The notes under the pieces were generated by a model, which searched no databases, had not been told where the DNA came from, and worked only from the letters and a program-made list of their open reading frames with translations. Both the position numbers and the translations under genes were made by a program. Below, piece by piece: positions 2,717 to 20,645 of a DNA stretch of 64,000 nucleotides (its first letter is position 1; each line of letters opens with the position of its first letter). Source of the DNA: Spinacia oleracea (lineage: Eukaryota > Streptophyta > Magnoliopsida > Caryophyllales > Amaranthaceae); NCBI RefSeq assembly GCF_020520425.1, contig NC_079489.1, positions 14,780,001 through 14,844,000 of the forward strand. Reading direction: 5' to 3'.

Positions 2717-3523
2717 ACCTTAGTTGACTAGGGATGGTGCACAGTCAGTGCAAAGATTAGAGTCTTTCCTGTTAGTCGTGCTTCTTGTTTCATGGTTAGC
2801 AATAATGGTGTTACAGCCTTGAATCCATCAGAAATTTATAATGCTGACAGCTTTATCCCTTTGCTTAAATCATTTCACAAAAAGATACAGTATGTATTTA
2901 TATTGCAAAATCACAAACACATCTCATGTTCTTTTCTACATAACCTAAGGTTGCTAACCTCATTCCCTCTCTCAAAATAAAGTTTCAGTGAAATTTGTAA
3001 ACTAGAAAATTTAGGAATTAGGATCACCTAGCCATATTTAACATCTTATAGTACCAAATCACTCGATCCAAGGAAGGAGCTAAGAGGGTTTTTATACTGC
3101 AATCTGATATTAGCCCATAAGATTATATTGGCTCTAAGTTAAAATAGGTGTGTCTTCTTTAATAAATCTGGTTTCAGTATCATAAATTCCTGAACTTGTG
3201 TAAACTATCATCTACCATTCCATTTCCTCATTACTAAATTTGTAGCTATTGTGACAGTAGTACTTGTGTACCTGATTGATAAACACCAATTTCCGTGCAA
3301 TAGCTTCAAAAATTGTACACGAGTGGTACATAGAGGAGTTTTATTTATTTTGGTTTTCATGTATGGCATGTCCCCCTGTGTTACATGCTGCCAAATTGTT
3401 GTGGGTTTATTTGGTACAGGTAAAAAGAAACGAAAAGATTTGGGGACACGGTAAGTCTTCATTGAGGGTGGATCTTAACAATAGGGTCTTGGATTGTTGT
3501 GTAGGGCTGATGGTTCGGTTTAT
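2717..3523. other. Intergenic, no supported gene
   Basis: Short open frames exist on both strands (for example 3276-3539 +), but I recognise no domain, splice structure or repeat terminus. It may hold unrecognised exon relics. Confidence 0.4.
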
Positions 3524-3557
3524 AAGTCAACTTTGGTAGCCTGGCCAAAGTTGACTT
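3524..3557. repeat. Perfect 13-bp inverted repeat (hairpin)
   Basis: AAGTCAACTTTGG at 3524-3536 is the exact reverse complement of CCAAAGTTGACTT at 3545-3557, with an 8-nt loop. It lies just left of the AT-rich, tRNA-like-bearing segment and may be its left end or an unrelated hairpin. Confidence 0.7.
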
Positions 3558-3669
3558 GTTGTTTCCTGTTTTGTTTTCCAAAAGTAAACTAAATTAATCT
3601 AAAAGTTAATTAAATCTCTCAAAGTAAACTTAATAATAATAATGAAGCGTCAATATTATTCTTCCTTTA

Positions 3670-3740
3670 AACCTATTAGCTCAAATGGTAGAGCACTATG
3701 CAGATGCATAGGGGATGTAGGTTCGATTCCTACATAGGTT
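3670..3740 (+). tRNA. tRNA-like structure, probably not a functional tRNA
   Basis: AACCTAT pairs fully with ATAGGTT (7-bp acceptor). The D arm is GCTCAAATGGTAGAGC, and the T arm GTAGG-TTCGATT-CCTAC is fully paired, so A and B boxes are present. The anticodon arm is 16 nt rather than 17 and folds as CTATGC-AGAT-GCATAG, leaving no normal 7-nt anticodon loop. That argues against a working tRNA. A related structure lies on the opposite strand at 5207-5278. Confidence 0.45.
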
Positions 3741-3845
3741 GTCTCTAAAAGTATATGAAAAACAAACTCAAAAGTAAATCATAATAAATCAAAAGTAAAT
3801 CAAAATATTTCTGGAACAAAAACTAAAATCAAATAAGGATTTTGA

Positions 3846-4630
3846 TATATGCAGCCCTTAGGCCTGCGAATAAAAGTTAGCAAAACTCACTATTTAATGC
3901 ATATTTTATAGTTTTAAAGGAATCTAATTGAACGAATAAAAAAAATTACTCCGTAATTTGTTAACCTAATTAATGCACTTCATAACAACAAATTTAGAGT
4001 TCCAATTTTATTTTATTTTTTAACAAATTAGAGTTCTAATTTTGGTCACGTAACTCACAGCTAAACTTTTTGGACGGCATAATTTTATTAAAGAACATTT
4101 AACCGAATTATATATACTTCGTTCATACATTAAGAAAACAAAATTACTCATCATACAGAGCTAACCAAATCAATTAGAAGCACAACTTATCATGAAAACT
4201 CCGTACTTAATTAGAATTATGTCTTCTGTTTGTTTCAGAAATACTAATAAGTTGTGCTCATATGCGGAAGCAAACAAATAATAAGTTGTTTTTATATCAT
4301 TAAGCAAACAAAACCAAACACCCAATTAATACTACGTACAAAACAAAAAAATCATTTTTTTTATATGAGGATTAAATTCAAAAGTAAAAAAGCAACAAAA
4401 ATAAAGAACATGCCAGAGATAAACCAAATTCTGAAGAGGTATGAAAATGAGTAGAAGAAAAATGGCAGAGGTTAATGTTGATTAGTGTAACAGTAAATAA
4501 TTAATGAGGTTTTTATATGAAATTTATTTATGTGTATTAAATTCTCCTACTAGATTCTATTTATCTTGAAAATATAAGAATATTTTAGGAGTATTTAATG
4601 CTTATTTACAGCCCTAAGGGCTGCAAATAT
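3846..4630. mobile_element. Small terminal-inverted-repeat element (MITE-like)
   Basis: The left end reads GCAGCCCTTAGGCCTGCGAATAA. The right end, reverse-complemented, reads GCAGCCCTTAGGGCTGTAAATAA. The interior is AT-rich with no coding signal. I did not find a convincing target-site duplication, so the superfamily is open. It appears nested in the tRNA-like-bearing segment. Confidence 0.5.
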
Positions 4631-4832
4631 CATTTGCCATCAAATAAAAGTAAAGTAAAATTCAATAAAAGTAAATCAAAAAAATTCAACAGTAAATCAA
4701 AGTATCTCAAATATTTTGTGGCAGCCTGCTGACTATTTGGGGCCTGCACTATTCTAGCTTGCAATTGCACGAGTTGAGTCATATTGACTTGATACTACAG
4801 TCAATCATCTGAAGTTGCAACCAGATTTGCAG

Positions 4833-4953
4833 GAACAATGAATGCCCTGCGTGCCGCTTGCATTGTGCTAGTCGTCAGTCTTTAAGAGATGATCCTGATT
4901 ATGATGCACTGATTGCTGCGATATATCCAGATATTGATCAATATGAAGAAAAG
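4833..4953 (+). pseudogene. Captured exon of a RING1-type E3 ubiquitin ligase
   Basis: The frame translates to NNECPACRLHCASRQSLRDD followed by PDYDALIAAIYPDIDQYEEK. I recognise this as the end of the C3HC4 RING finger plus following residues of plant RING1A/RING1B, the PRC1 ubiquitin ligases acting on histone H2A. The exon is preceded by TTTGCAG (acceptor) and followed by GTATGC (donor), so intron borders came along with it. The first half of the RING (zinc ligands 1-4) and the rest of the gene are absent here. Being a lone exon inside a repeat-like segment, it is best read as a captured gene fragment. Confidence 0.8.
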
Positions 4954-5206
4954 GTATGCTTCTTGAATAGCTATTTGTTTGACATACTTTGGTTAGATGC
5001 ATTGTCTATTGTTTTTTAGTTTGGTTTCTACTTGTGTTTTCTACCTTTTGGTAATAAAAGTTCTCTATTTTATATAAAAAAAAAACTTAAATGTAAATAA
5101 TATTAACTCACAAGTAAATTAAAAAATCTCAAAAGTAAATAAAAAGTTTTAAAAGTATTTACCAACAGTGTCCCAAGAAGATTTGAAGGAAACTAAAAAG
5201 TAAACA

Positions 5207-5278
5207 AACCTACGTGGGATTTGAACCCCGCATTTTTTGTGCATTTGCACAATGCTCTACCAATTGAGCTAGTAGGAT
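5207..5278 (-). tRNA. tRNA-like structure, opposite orientation, probably not functional
   Basis: On the minus strand: acceptor ATCCTAC/GTAGGTT (6 of 7 pairs), D arm GCTCAATTGGTAGAGC, T arm GCGGGGTTCAAATCCCAC (4 of 5 pairs). The anticodon arm folds as TTGTGC-AAAT-GCACAA, again 16 nt without a 7-nt loop. Compared with 3670-3740 the anticodon stem sequence differs but pairing is kept by paired changes. Confidence 0.45.
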
Positions 5279-5379
5279 AATGTTTTTAAATAGAACAAAT
5301 AAAAGTAAAGCAAAAACCCCAAAAAGTAAATCAAAATAATTCAAAAGTAAAGGCCCCGATTACTTCTGAAAATTAGCTT

Positions 5380-6520
5380 AGTAACGTTTTTGATGCAATT
5401 ATAACTCTAAATTTGAAATATATTTAATGTTTTAGAGCCCTTAACTTTCTGTATAGCCCGACGATTGCAGCTACACCCTTACCTAGTCACTAACTTATCG
5501 GACAACATCATAACCACAAAACCTAACCCATATGTCACCAAGGAACTGAGATGGCCAACAGAGCCAAGATACAAACCAAGAACAGAACAAGAACTGACTT
5601 CTAAATCCCACACCAAAGCAGCCAGCACAACCCAAGCAGAACAGTATATCAGCCATACCATATCAGCCAACAGAGAGAACGACAACACATCAGAAAGCGC
5701 GGGATAACTTTGGTCATGCTGACCAAATTGTAGCACACTAACCTAGCAAGAAACAACCCAAAAGAATAAACTAGCTCAAACAAATTTCGTCTCCAAAATC
5801 GTACAATTGAAGGTGAACTTACAAACCTTAGCGTTTTTGTTCCTTTTTTTGGTAAGTTTTGAATTTTGGGCTTCCTTGATGGTCAGTTCGTAAAAACCCG
5901 AGCTGTTGCAATAATATATATAGTTTTTTTTTTATGTTGTGGGGTGTTGGTTAATTTGGTCTTGTTGGAAAATTAGAAAGAAAATTATAACCTTGAATTT
6001 GAAAAAGATCCAGATCCATCAGGCAATTGCTTTACCCCAGCCATAGCAATTGCTGATTATTTTTGACGAACTTCGAATGGAGAGGTATGAGGGATCGACA
6101 ATGGTGGAGAAGAGGTAGAAGAGAAATAATGGAGAGGAGTGCAGAGATGAAGCAGAAAATCGCAGAGGAGAGAGGAACGAAAATTAAAATAGCAATTAAA
6201 GAAAATAAGGGGGGGGGGGGGAATTATAATTGTTATATAACACGTAAGGGTGAATACCTCCTATAGCAGGTTAGTAACTTGTTAGGCTTAATAATAGTAG
6301 TTGGGTCATAAAGGTTGGATTATTTAGAAATATCGCATAGGTAGGATTAATTAAAGAAAATCTGGCAAAGGTTGGATTAATAATTACAAATTTTCCTAAA
6401 AAATATTAAAAAAAATCACCCCCTCCCCACCAACCTCAAAAATTTGACACATTTCCCACTAACTACATTAAAAAAAATATCTAATATCAACTAGCATCTA
6501 ATTAAGTAATAAGTCAATTA
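5380..6520. other. No recognised gene; possible end of a terminal-repeat element
   Basis: Open frames at 5465-5707 on both strands and 6063-6266 show no domain I know. 6060-6220 is purine-rich with an 11-12 nt G run near 6211. The stretch 6330-6400 ends in CAAATTTTCCTAAAAA, resembling the right end of the MULE at 58440-58459, but no matching left end was found. Confidence 0.35.
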
Positions 6521-9584: not shown

Positions 9585-10325
9585 CAATTATCAAGGCGTA
9601 ATCGTCGCCCCGGCACTGATCATTAATAGTTCCACAATATGCATACCGGGATTCAAGATCAAAATTAGGTTCGTGTGAGATTGTACTTGTCCGCGAGATA
9701 ACCTTTGCAAACATAAAAGGAGTACATAAATGATGAATATTTGGATATATACTTTGCAAACATAAACTGATAAAAGGAATACATAAAGAATTTGGCATCC
9801 AGACATTTCAGAGTGCGCGCCTCTTATGTTTGATTCAAGAGAGCATGCTTTCCCAGTGGTTATTAAATACTAACAAGAATATCAAAAAATCACATTGTCG
9901 CTTTGGCCGAGTGGTTAAGGCGTGTGCCTGCTAAGTACATAGGGTTTCCCCGCGAGAGTTCGAATCTCTCAGGCGACGTTTTTTGCATATGACAACGTTT
10001 TTAAATTAATACAAAGTATATATGTAATTTCGTCGATATGATTCCATGTTCGAACCCTGGATGCAGCAATTTTTAAAACCTCTCAAGATTTCTGTTTTTT
10101 ATTGTTACCACTCGGATTATCCGAATTCGGGGCAAGTTTTGGGTAGATAGGTTCTAGTCTCATCTCAAGATTATAACTTAGTATTTTATCTTTCTCTAAT
10201 ATGGGACTACTCAATTAAGGGTAATGATTTTTTTTATTTTTTTTTTACAAGGAGAGGCACATACTACAGTTATAATCGCGACCCATATCGCTATTTTAAA
10301 GAAATTTAGTCATGTTTAATAACGT
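9585..10325. repeat. Duplicated block A (with tRNA-Ser)
   Basis: Shares a collinear series of landmarks with 19870-20645: TTTGCAAACATAAAAG.AGTACATAAATGAT, AGAATTTGGCATCCA, the tRNA-Ser gene, TCGATATGATTCCA, GGGACTACTC and TTTAAAGAA(A)TTTAGTCAT. Divergence and small indels throughout suggest an old segmental duplication or two copies of one dispersed element. Confidence 0.75.
9897..9978 (+). tRNA. tRNA-Ser (anticodon GCU), copy A
   Basis: 82 nt from GTCGCTT to AGGCGAC plus discriminator G. The acceptor has seven pairs including one G-U. The D arm contains GGCCGAGTGGTTAAGGC, the anticodon loop CTGCTAA (GCT), the T arm AGAGTTCGAATCTCT. The long variable arm marks a class II tRNA-Ser. No intron. 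A T6 run at 9979-9984 fits a Pol III terminator. The variable arm has AGGG where copy B has GGGG, costing one stem pair. Confidence 0.93.
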
Positions 10326-19869: not shown

Positions 19870-20645
19870 TAAAATATTAGTACGTATTCGATGAATATTT
19901 GGATAACCTTTGCAAACATAAAAGAAGTACATAAATGATAAATATTTGGATAACTTTTACAGACATAAAAGGAAAATATAAAAGAATTTGGCATCCAATA
20001 CTCTTCGTGCACGTCTCTTGTGTTCCATTCAAAACAACATGCTCTCCCAGTGGCATGGTTCATCATAAGGATAAGGTCGATCACAACTTTGATAATAATC
20101 GTGACATTTCAGAGTGGATTAAAGATTATTTAGAATTATATAATATTAAGAATAGTGAGAAGACACATTGTCGCTTTGGCCGAGTGGTTAAGGCGTGTGC
20201 CTGCTAAGTACATGGGGTTTCCCCGCGAGAGTTCGAATCTCTCAGGCGACGTTTTTATGAATAGCTTTTGGCATACGACAACGTATTACAAATTCAATAC
20301 GGAATAGGTTTATACGGTATACGGTATACGGAGTATAATTTTATCACAAAAAAAGCTGCAGTAGCACATTGGTTAATTATCAGGTCGATATGATTCCAGG
20401 TAAGTACCGTGGCTGCAGTAATGTTTTCAAACCTTCATTTTTGGGCAATAACTCTCCACTGCAAACACTTATAATATGGTATTTTCTCCTATACCTCCAA
20501 TGTGGGAGTGTGGGACTACTCTAACAATTTTATTTTCATTTTTTAACAAGGGGAAAAAGGGGAATTTAATCAGGCTTGAGCACGGGAAACACGTACTCAC
20601 AGCAATAATCGCCACAAACATCGGGATTTTAAAGAATTTAGTCAT
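19870..20645. repeat. Duplicated block B (with tRNA-Ser)
   Basis: Second copy of the block at 9585-10325, about 10.2 kb downstream in the same orientation. Also contains CTGCAGTAGCACATTGGTTA at about 20357, possibly part of a second, badly degraded tRNA; block A keeps the other half (TTCGAACCCTGGATGCAGC, about 10051). Confidence 0.75.
20170..20251 (+). tRNA. tRNA-Ser (anticodon GCU), copy B
   Basis: 82 nt, identical to copy A except for GGGG in the variable arm, which restores full GGGG/CCCC pairing. This is the canonical plant sequence as I know it. A T5 run follows at 20252 for Pol III termination. This copy is the more likely functional one. Confidence 0.95.

Follow-up and report, generated by a model that had tools for sequence, protein, structure and literature searches.

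A 64,000-nucleotide stretch of the spinach genome (hereafter the window; G000:C3:14780001-14844000) contains a copy of a carrier element whose family has TIR-like termini beside (TA)n and holds in its interior a convergent pair of tRNA mimics. In these mimics the pairing of the anticodon arm is preserved while its letters change, and the anticodon is absent because the arm is a closed hairpin. This suggests that a transposon has put tRNA mimicry to its own use. The features of the window copy are given in Table 1.

Table 1. Features of the carrier copy in the window (positions counted from the first base of the window)
Feature	Position	Strand	Remarks
Carrier part	2717-5783	+	89-94% identity to L009-L012 on both sides of the nested insert
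Left block	3436-3669	+	conserved directly upstream of unit a; common to most fetched copies
AAAAGTAAATC words	3580-5351	+	around and between units a and b
Unit a	3670-3741	+	tRNA-like, with acceptor, D and T arms; A and B boxes intact
Nested MITE-like insert	3843-4632	.	31-nt inverted arms; not part of the carrier family
Captured RING1-type polycomb ubiquitin ligase exon	4833-4953	+	splice-like borders, by eye
Unit b	5206-5278	-	tRNA-like; faces unit a; decayed in the window copy

Facing tRNA-like units with a closed anticodon arm

Both units of the window were detected by ARAGORN, which typed each of them as tRNA-???, and both exceeded the gathering score of 29 of the Rfam tRNA model (53.1 bits for unit a and 35.6 bits for unit b). 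With the family model R1, which was built partly from these two units, the scores were 97 and 85 bits, respectively. The anticodon arm is CTATGC-AGAT-GCATAG in unit a and TTGTGC-AAAT-GCACAA in unit b, each a stem of 6 bp with a 4-nt loop. De novo RNA folding gave a cloverleaf-like fold with this 6-bp/4-nt arm for both window units, with z-scores of -3.0 for unit a and -3.6 for unit b, the T arm of b being off register; in the alignment, the decayed unit b has one surplus base in its T stem. Among the six units folded, a cloverleaf-like minimum was also obtained for unit a of L051 and unit b of L046, and the full cloverleaf was absent at minimum energy in unit a of L050 and unit b of L041. An earlier note on this DNA had described two structures which keep acceptor, D and T arms, carry such an anticodon arm and face each other across about 1.47 kb. 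The ARAGORN and Rfam matches together with the folds agree with this description of the arms, and the inner distance between the two units is 1,464 bp. The window also holds two tRNA-Ser(GCT) genes (9896-9979 and 20169-20252, both on the + strand and 10.3 kb apart), which score 57.6 and 57.8 bits with the Rfam tRNA model and share 91% identity across 122 bp, another stretch of similarity lying upstream; this pair is probably an ordinary duplication.

The genome searched comprises 894,210,420 bases in 242 contigs. A pattern that is blind to the anticodon arm, fixing the D arm and the T loop only, gave 324 matches, of which the first 100 were listed, and its control gave none. With G-U pairs counted, an uninterrupted stem of at least 6 bp was present in 89 of these 100 units and one of at least 5 bp in 96, compared with 3.3% and 12.7%, respectively, of same-letter shuffles. 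The loop was 4 nt long in 84 of the 100, and a normal arm of 5 bp and 7 nt was possible in 9. The 89 units with at least 6 bp have 16 different stems, including CTATGC/GCATAG, TTGTGC/GCACAA, ATGTGC/GCACAT, CTATAC/GTATAG and ATATGC/GCATAT, many of the 100 units being near-identical and not amounting to 100 independent cases. What had been noticed in the window pair, that the stems differ in letters yet stay paired, is supported. All 40 units reported by ARAGORN in 21 sources were typed as tRNA-???, and the units do not qualify as functional tRNA genes, which carry their anticodon in a 7-nt loop on a 5-bp stem.

An alignment of 34 unit rows (A1) was used for the analysis of covariation; the L052 unit b, whose anticodon arm has been lost, was omitted from the alignments. 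In A1, 95.6% of 743 cells are paired, compared with 25-54% in slid controls, and 62 cells carry changes on both sides, compared with 22.9 in shuffles. Six pairs changed on both sides, a number reached by 51 of 500 shuffles, and 14 pair types are present, which 467 of 500 shuffles reach. Judged from the alignment, much of this covariation is a reflection of one old split between a and b. Among the 20 rows of unit a, changes on both sides occur in two pairs, a count that 2 of 500 shuffles reach, and several slid versions equal or exceed the true covariation score; for unit b alone (26 rows), two pairs likewise change on both sides, as reached by 89 of 500 shuffles. The elbow letters are invariant or at least 90% conserved in the 34 rows, the acceptor and T arm are tRNA-like, and the D-loop GG and the T-loop TTCRA are mostly retained in both unit types.

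At least 106 genome matches to positions 3600-5350 of the window were found when the best 40 of 1,297 candidates were scored. A pattern including part of the closed arm gave 1,269 matches with up to 3 mismatches, of which the first 100 listed were all exact and the inexact ones may include true tRNAs; the reversed control gave 0. For TAGCTCAANTGGNAGAGCA, 705 exact matches were obtained, the first 100 of which were listed, and again none for the reversed control. These counts would put the number of anticodon-less mimics at the order of a thousand, and facing pairs of them are frequent.

A covariance model from the 34 units was run over the window and the 26 loci L029-L054 (27 sources, 274 kb), and 57 units were found. 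At least one convergent pair was present in 26 of the 27 sources and a second one in L042, and all 27 pairs were convergent, + then -, in a choice of loci that favours pairs and does not give the genome-wide pairing rate. The 20 loci L029-L048 were picked for similarity to the window region; L049-L053 are five short stretches from pattern matches, of which L050-L053 were picked since a pair was already visible; and L054 was picked because pieces of both units had already matched there. At L049:493-565 a single b-type unit was found, with no mate within the 3-kb stretch. By eye, the DNA upstream of this unit resembles Rop GTPase exons, and an LTR-like start lies about 60 bp downstream. Extra weak b-like units of 36 and 31 bits lie between a and b at L040:5371-5442 and L043:5390-5461, respectively, and are perhaps decayed duplicates. 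The inner distance of the 27 pairs ranges from 353 to 4424 bp with a median of 656; the fixed range of distances raised in the earlier note applies to the 22 pairs that are 353-767 bp apart and not to the other five, which are 1.2-4.4 kb apart.

The neighbours of the matches in the genome show the same preference. Among the first 100 of the 705 matches, neighbours within 5 kb were convergent in 11 cases, divergent in 1 and on the same strand in 9, six of these 9 coming from one tandem array; within 2 kb the numbers were 11, 0 and 2, respectively. For the overlapping arm-blind pattern (first 100 of 324) there were 9 convergent, 1 divergent and 2 same-strand neighbours, and each of the 9 convergent ones consisted of one a and one b. 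Many listed matches look single because exact patterns miss mates. The opposed arrangement recurs, and the view that two degenerate repeats happen to face each other is contradicted by the 27 convergent pairs, selected as described, and by the 11 convergent neighbours against 1 divergent.

Some places in the genome deserve mention in their own right. At G000:C1:66718526-66737225, seven a-type D-arm units lie on one strand with a spacing of 3.11-3.12 kb, an array which seems to have grown from the carrier family of the tRNA mimics. Four units (G000:C2:41570367, C2:60559515, C3:9311836 and C3:35489701) share an identical 53-nt match and have the lengthened arm CTATGCA-AATGA-TGCATAG; they are perhaps a recent burst of another subfamily. 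Three places at G000:C5:16149329, 16167552 and 16192406, 18-25 kb apart, have equal or near-equal match scores, and perhaps represent a segmental duplication holding the family.

Divergence of the units was compared pair by pair with that of the aligned flanks, in four bins of flank divergence. Only aligned flanks were used, because the low identity of the b flanks is partly due to mosaic, non-homologous sequence. All 210 pairs of 21 units were available for unit a and 150 of the 231 pairs of 22 units for unit b, the remainder having been filtered out for their span, their register or fewer than 60 aligned flank bases. The unit and flank divergences were 0.017/0.034, 0.036/0.095, 0.043/0.143 and 0.031/0.209 for unit a, and 0.037/0.033, 0.082/0.079, 0.112/0.152 and 0.132/0.246 for unit b, in pairs that are not independent and in bins set by the flank divergence itself. 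Unit a is two to seven times less diverged than its flanks, and unit b in close pairs diverges as fast as the flank (0.037 vs 0.033). An earlier test on fewer copies, now superseded, had placed the unit below the flank in 118 of 120 a pairs and 80 of 93 b pairs. The pattern fits a history in which copies would decay freely after insertion and the multiplying lineage would keep the units, strongly for a and weakly for b.

The carrier element and its interior

The four closest relatives of the window copy (L009-L012, the same places as L029-L032) share the carrier part up to a left limit at 2717 in L010, 2735 in L011 and 2742 in L012. Truncation has left the window copy without the outer arms and termini that its full relatives possess. 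Similarity in the left block begins at 3436-3438 in 12 of 14 copies (L013-L025 and L028), and its mean pairwise identity is 0.78-0.95 in steps of 20 columns; the block does not occur in the first pair of L042 or in L046/L047.

Both ends could be measured in 7 of 21 sources, the other fetched copies being without one or both recognisable termini. In these seven copies the carrier is 5.2-6.6 kb long and has TIR-like termini of 21-46 bp with 80-89% identity. (TA)6 or longer stands beside both termini in L029, L031, L035, L037, L038 and L044, and L030 has (TA)n beside the left terminus only. The pair of units is internal, 1.5-3.0 kb from the carrier ends; the suggestion that the units are the ends of an element was therefore rejected. 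L029 and L031 are 98.1% identical over 5.1 kb and their outer flanks look unrelated, therefore the whole element has been moved or copied. At L035, where an empty site of the carrier was sought, the left flank has a gag-like retrotransposon ORF that seemingly finds no continuation in the right flank. Among 10 ORFs from four copies no transposase was found with Pfam; one of the ten, located between the two units of L037, is a fragment of RNase H-like type (RVT_3).

The words in which the units had been said to be embedded are real and recur at a spacing of 21 bp. In the window, AAAAGTAAA occurs at 3580, 3770, 3791, 4646, 4667, 5131, 5196, 5301, 5322 and 5343, and once more at 4380 inside the nested insert; these 11 are all the forward copies in the 64 kb, and two reverse copies lie far off. 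In 21 sources there are 330 forward and 54 reverse copies, and the spacing of successive ones is 21 bp in 121 cases and 42 bp in 24. Within the 9.9 kb fetched for the seven measured copies, 0 forward words and one reverse word lie beyond the carrier ends, and over L029-L048 the A-rich AAAAGTAAATC has a strong strand bias inside the carrier and is near-absent just outside. The phasing of A tracts by two helical turns would suggest bent DNA.

The captured RING1 exon of the earlier note, carried between a and b by the window family, is real in so far as an ORF at L029:4215-4406, in the sister copy of the window exon, matches RING2 (E 9.7e-11); it is only about 121 bp long in the window, by eye, and the L029 translation gave no Pfam match. 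A native RING1 gene in the window was considered and rejected, as the unspliced RING-finger pattern is absent from the window in one reading frame, where a RING split by an intron could escape. The nested insert accounts for a further part of the interior: 3837-4638 is absent from L009-L012, in which about 3836 joins 4639. Its arms are 87% complementary and contain GCAGCCCTTAGG, and stretches similar to it are present at L005 and L007.

What may keep the units in the family

A and B boxes cover the D and T arms only; the acceptor stem and the closed anticodon stem, kept as they are, point to a folded RNA. Our best explanation, which we put forward tentatively and with more doubt than confidence, is that the fold is selected in the multiplying lineage and that the inward-facing units act as RNA-processing signals on inbound transcripts, in the way of mascRNA/menRNA or the t-elements of plant mitochondria. 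An inbound transcript on either strand would meet one unit in sense orientation and would be cut there by RNase P at the 5' end and by RNase Z at the 3' end, and transcripts leaving the interior would encounter antisense units only. Because inward-facing units are read in sense only by entering transcripts, the pair could serve as a gate. Cutting would prevent read-through RNA that fuses the interior or its cargo with neighbouring genes, and likewise the formation of silencing-inducing double-stranded RNA. Pol III might additionally be driven by the A and B boxes. The far-reaching form of this proposal, a two-way gate in which about a thousand facing mimics would cut every entering transcript and so shield the element against read-through, chimeric RNA and silencing, we consider unlikely, though not far-fetched.

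The units might instead be passive passengers, an inverted tRNA-derived pair caught once and since multiplied along with the element, the arms of which would be kept by quasi-palindrome correction and gene conversion rather than by selection on an RNA. That unit b diverges like its flank in close pairs, and that covariation within a and within b is modest, would be in line with this, and some arms are near-perfect palindromes, loop included (e.g. CTATGCATATATGCATAG in L052), the expected trace of template switching between hairpin arms. However, unit a is 6.6-fold less diverged than the flank in the most distant bin, and the elbow nucleotides are largely preserved. Two-sided changes between a and b also occur in the acceptor and T stems, neither of which is a short local palindrome, and convergence persists though the sequence between the units differs among subfamilies. 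We regard passengers as a serious possibility, though a somewhat doubtful one. Distinctly less probable to us is that the units are kept as DNA, their A and B boxes binding TFIIIC or starting Pol III to make a chromatin boundary or convergent promoters. The A-box motif is present in 19 of 21 a units and 20 of 22 b units and the B-box motif in 19 of 21 and 18 of 22, which speaks for such a role as far as the D and T arms are concerned, but the boxes do not explain paired acceptor and anticodon stems, and the B-box motif fails in 4 of the 22 b units. A T4 run within 12 nt downstream of b in 21 of 22 units (a five-T run 6 nt downstream on its own strand in the window) could be added in favour of this reading; in 17 of 21 copies the first 98 nt or more after unit a are free of T4 runs, and a tidy Pol III gene was not apparent there. 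Neither the T runs after b nor their lack after a was counted as independent evidence because the words are A-rich and their complement is T-rich.

The borders of the a-to-b stretch bear on another reading, in which this stretch would itself be mobile, a module that terminates on one side in unit a and lies within MULE-like carriers. By eye, the DNA that runs up to (C)TTA and the 5' end of a does not resemble the main left block in the first pair of L042 or in L046/L047, L052 and L053, and on the far side similarity stops near AAAGTAAAGG in L042, L051 and L053. At L054, moreover, a flank of the L046 type joins the words cleanly, lacking unit a and the roughly 24 bp that follow it. Yet inspection of the borders of L042, L046/L054 and L053 by eye revealed no target-site duplication; the left flank of L053 recurs together with unit a in five other places and therefore belongs to another carrier subfamily; and the L054 joint lies inside another intact pair, where recombination between word arrays explains it equally well. 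We read the border changes as probable recombination between word arrays, a precise gain or loss of a unit at the L054/L046 borders being the alternative reading, and hold a module to be quite improbable. Ordinary SINEs or tRNA pseudogenes with random neighbours were rejected, and we give them hardly any credence: tRNA homology, high copy number and single units such as that of L049 would be expected of them, but the missing anticodon is common to the units (closed arms in 89 of the first 100 of 324), two distinct unit types stand in opposed pairs (convergent in 26 of the 27 sources, chosen as above), and neither a tail nor a duplication was seen by eye at the unit borders.

Comparison with known systems

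SINEs have one 5' tRNA head with A and B boxes, and a 3' tail. The spinach units are like tRNA-derived SINEs in their tRNA-related sequence with A and B boxes, but there are two of them, opposed, inside a TIR-type element; with borders judged by eye, the SINE arrangement of 5' tRNA head, 3' tail and target-site duplication is broken by the opposed second unit. To our knowledge, mascRNA-type mimics have so far been described in vertebrate lncRNAs alone, and plant t-elements in mitochondria alone. The presence of mimics in a nuclear DNA transposon would mean that a mobile element exploits tRNA processing in a new way. Such units may surface in tRNA gene predictions and be dismissed there as pseudogenes or as tRNAs of undetermined type. 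In a spinach repeat survey (PMC6337768) the three mentions of tRNA fall, as far as its accessible part shows, in the methods and references, and spinach is not mentioned in the accessible part of a flowering-plant tRNA gene survey (PMC11700998).

The closest structural parallel is mascRNA/menRNA of MALAT1 and MEN-beta, described as a tRNA fold without usable anticodon and with conserved D-loop guanines (PMC11693755). In the same source the anticodon stem of these RNAs is described as lengthened and its loop as compact. RNase P and RNase Z cleave them, and the elbow that the two enzymes recognise depends crucially on a pair of D-loop guanines. The spinach units likewise have a lengthened anticodon stem, a compact loop, and a tRNA-like acceptor and T arm with the elbow. 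Whereas mascRNA/menRNA is described as a single unit with a reduced D arm in a vertebrate lncRNA (PMC11693755), the spinach units have a full D arm and lie two facing each other in a plant DNA element, their cleavage being proposed by analogy. Plant mitochondrial t-elements are reported as tRNA-like RNAs that mark transcript ends via RNase P and RNase Z; they are mitochondrial, lie at gene ends and are not described there as part of a transposon (PMC11658184).

The earlier note knew of no plant transposon with such tRNA-like units, and none was met among the listed titles and opening lines of abstracts of the open literature; at the same level, MULEs, whether TA-targeting or not, were nowhere described as containing tRNA-like units. 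tRNA is not mentioned in the Results section on MuTAnT (PMC4486113), and the word has 0 occurrences in the main text of PMC5907723. Among elements on record, the TA-targeting MULEs MuTAnT (Medicago), SaTar (guayule, rice), TAFT (maize) and Micron (rice) come closest. The spinach carrier shares with them, as they are reported, TIR-type termini beside (TA)n and multiple copies (PMC4486113, PMC5907723). It is 5.2-6.6 kb long, compared with up to about 1.9 kb for the non-autonomous TA-targeting MULEs in these reports (PMC4486113, PMC5907723), and, unlike them, it holds at least two kinds of captured gene piece, words spaced by 21 bp, and an internal pair of tRNA mimics.
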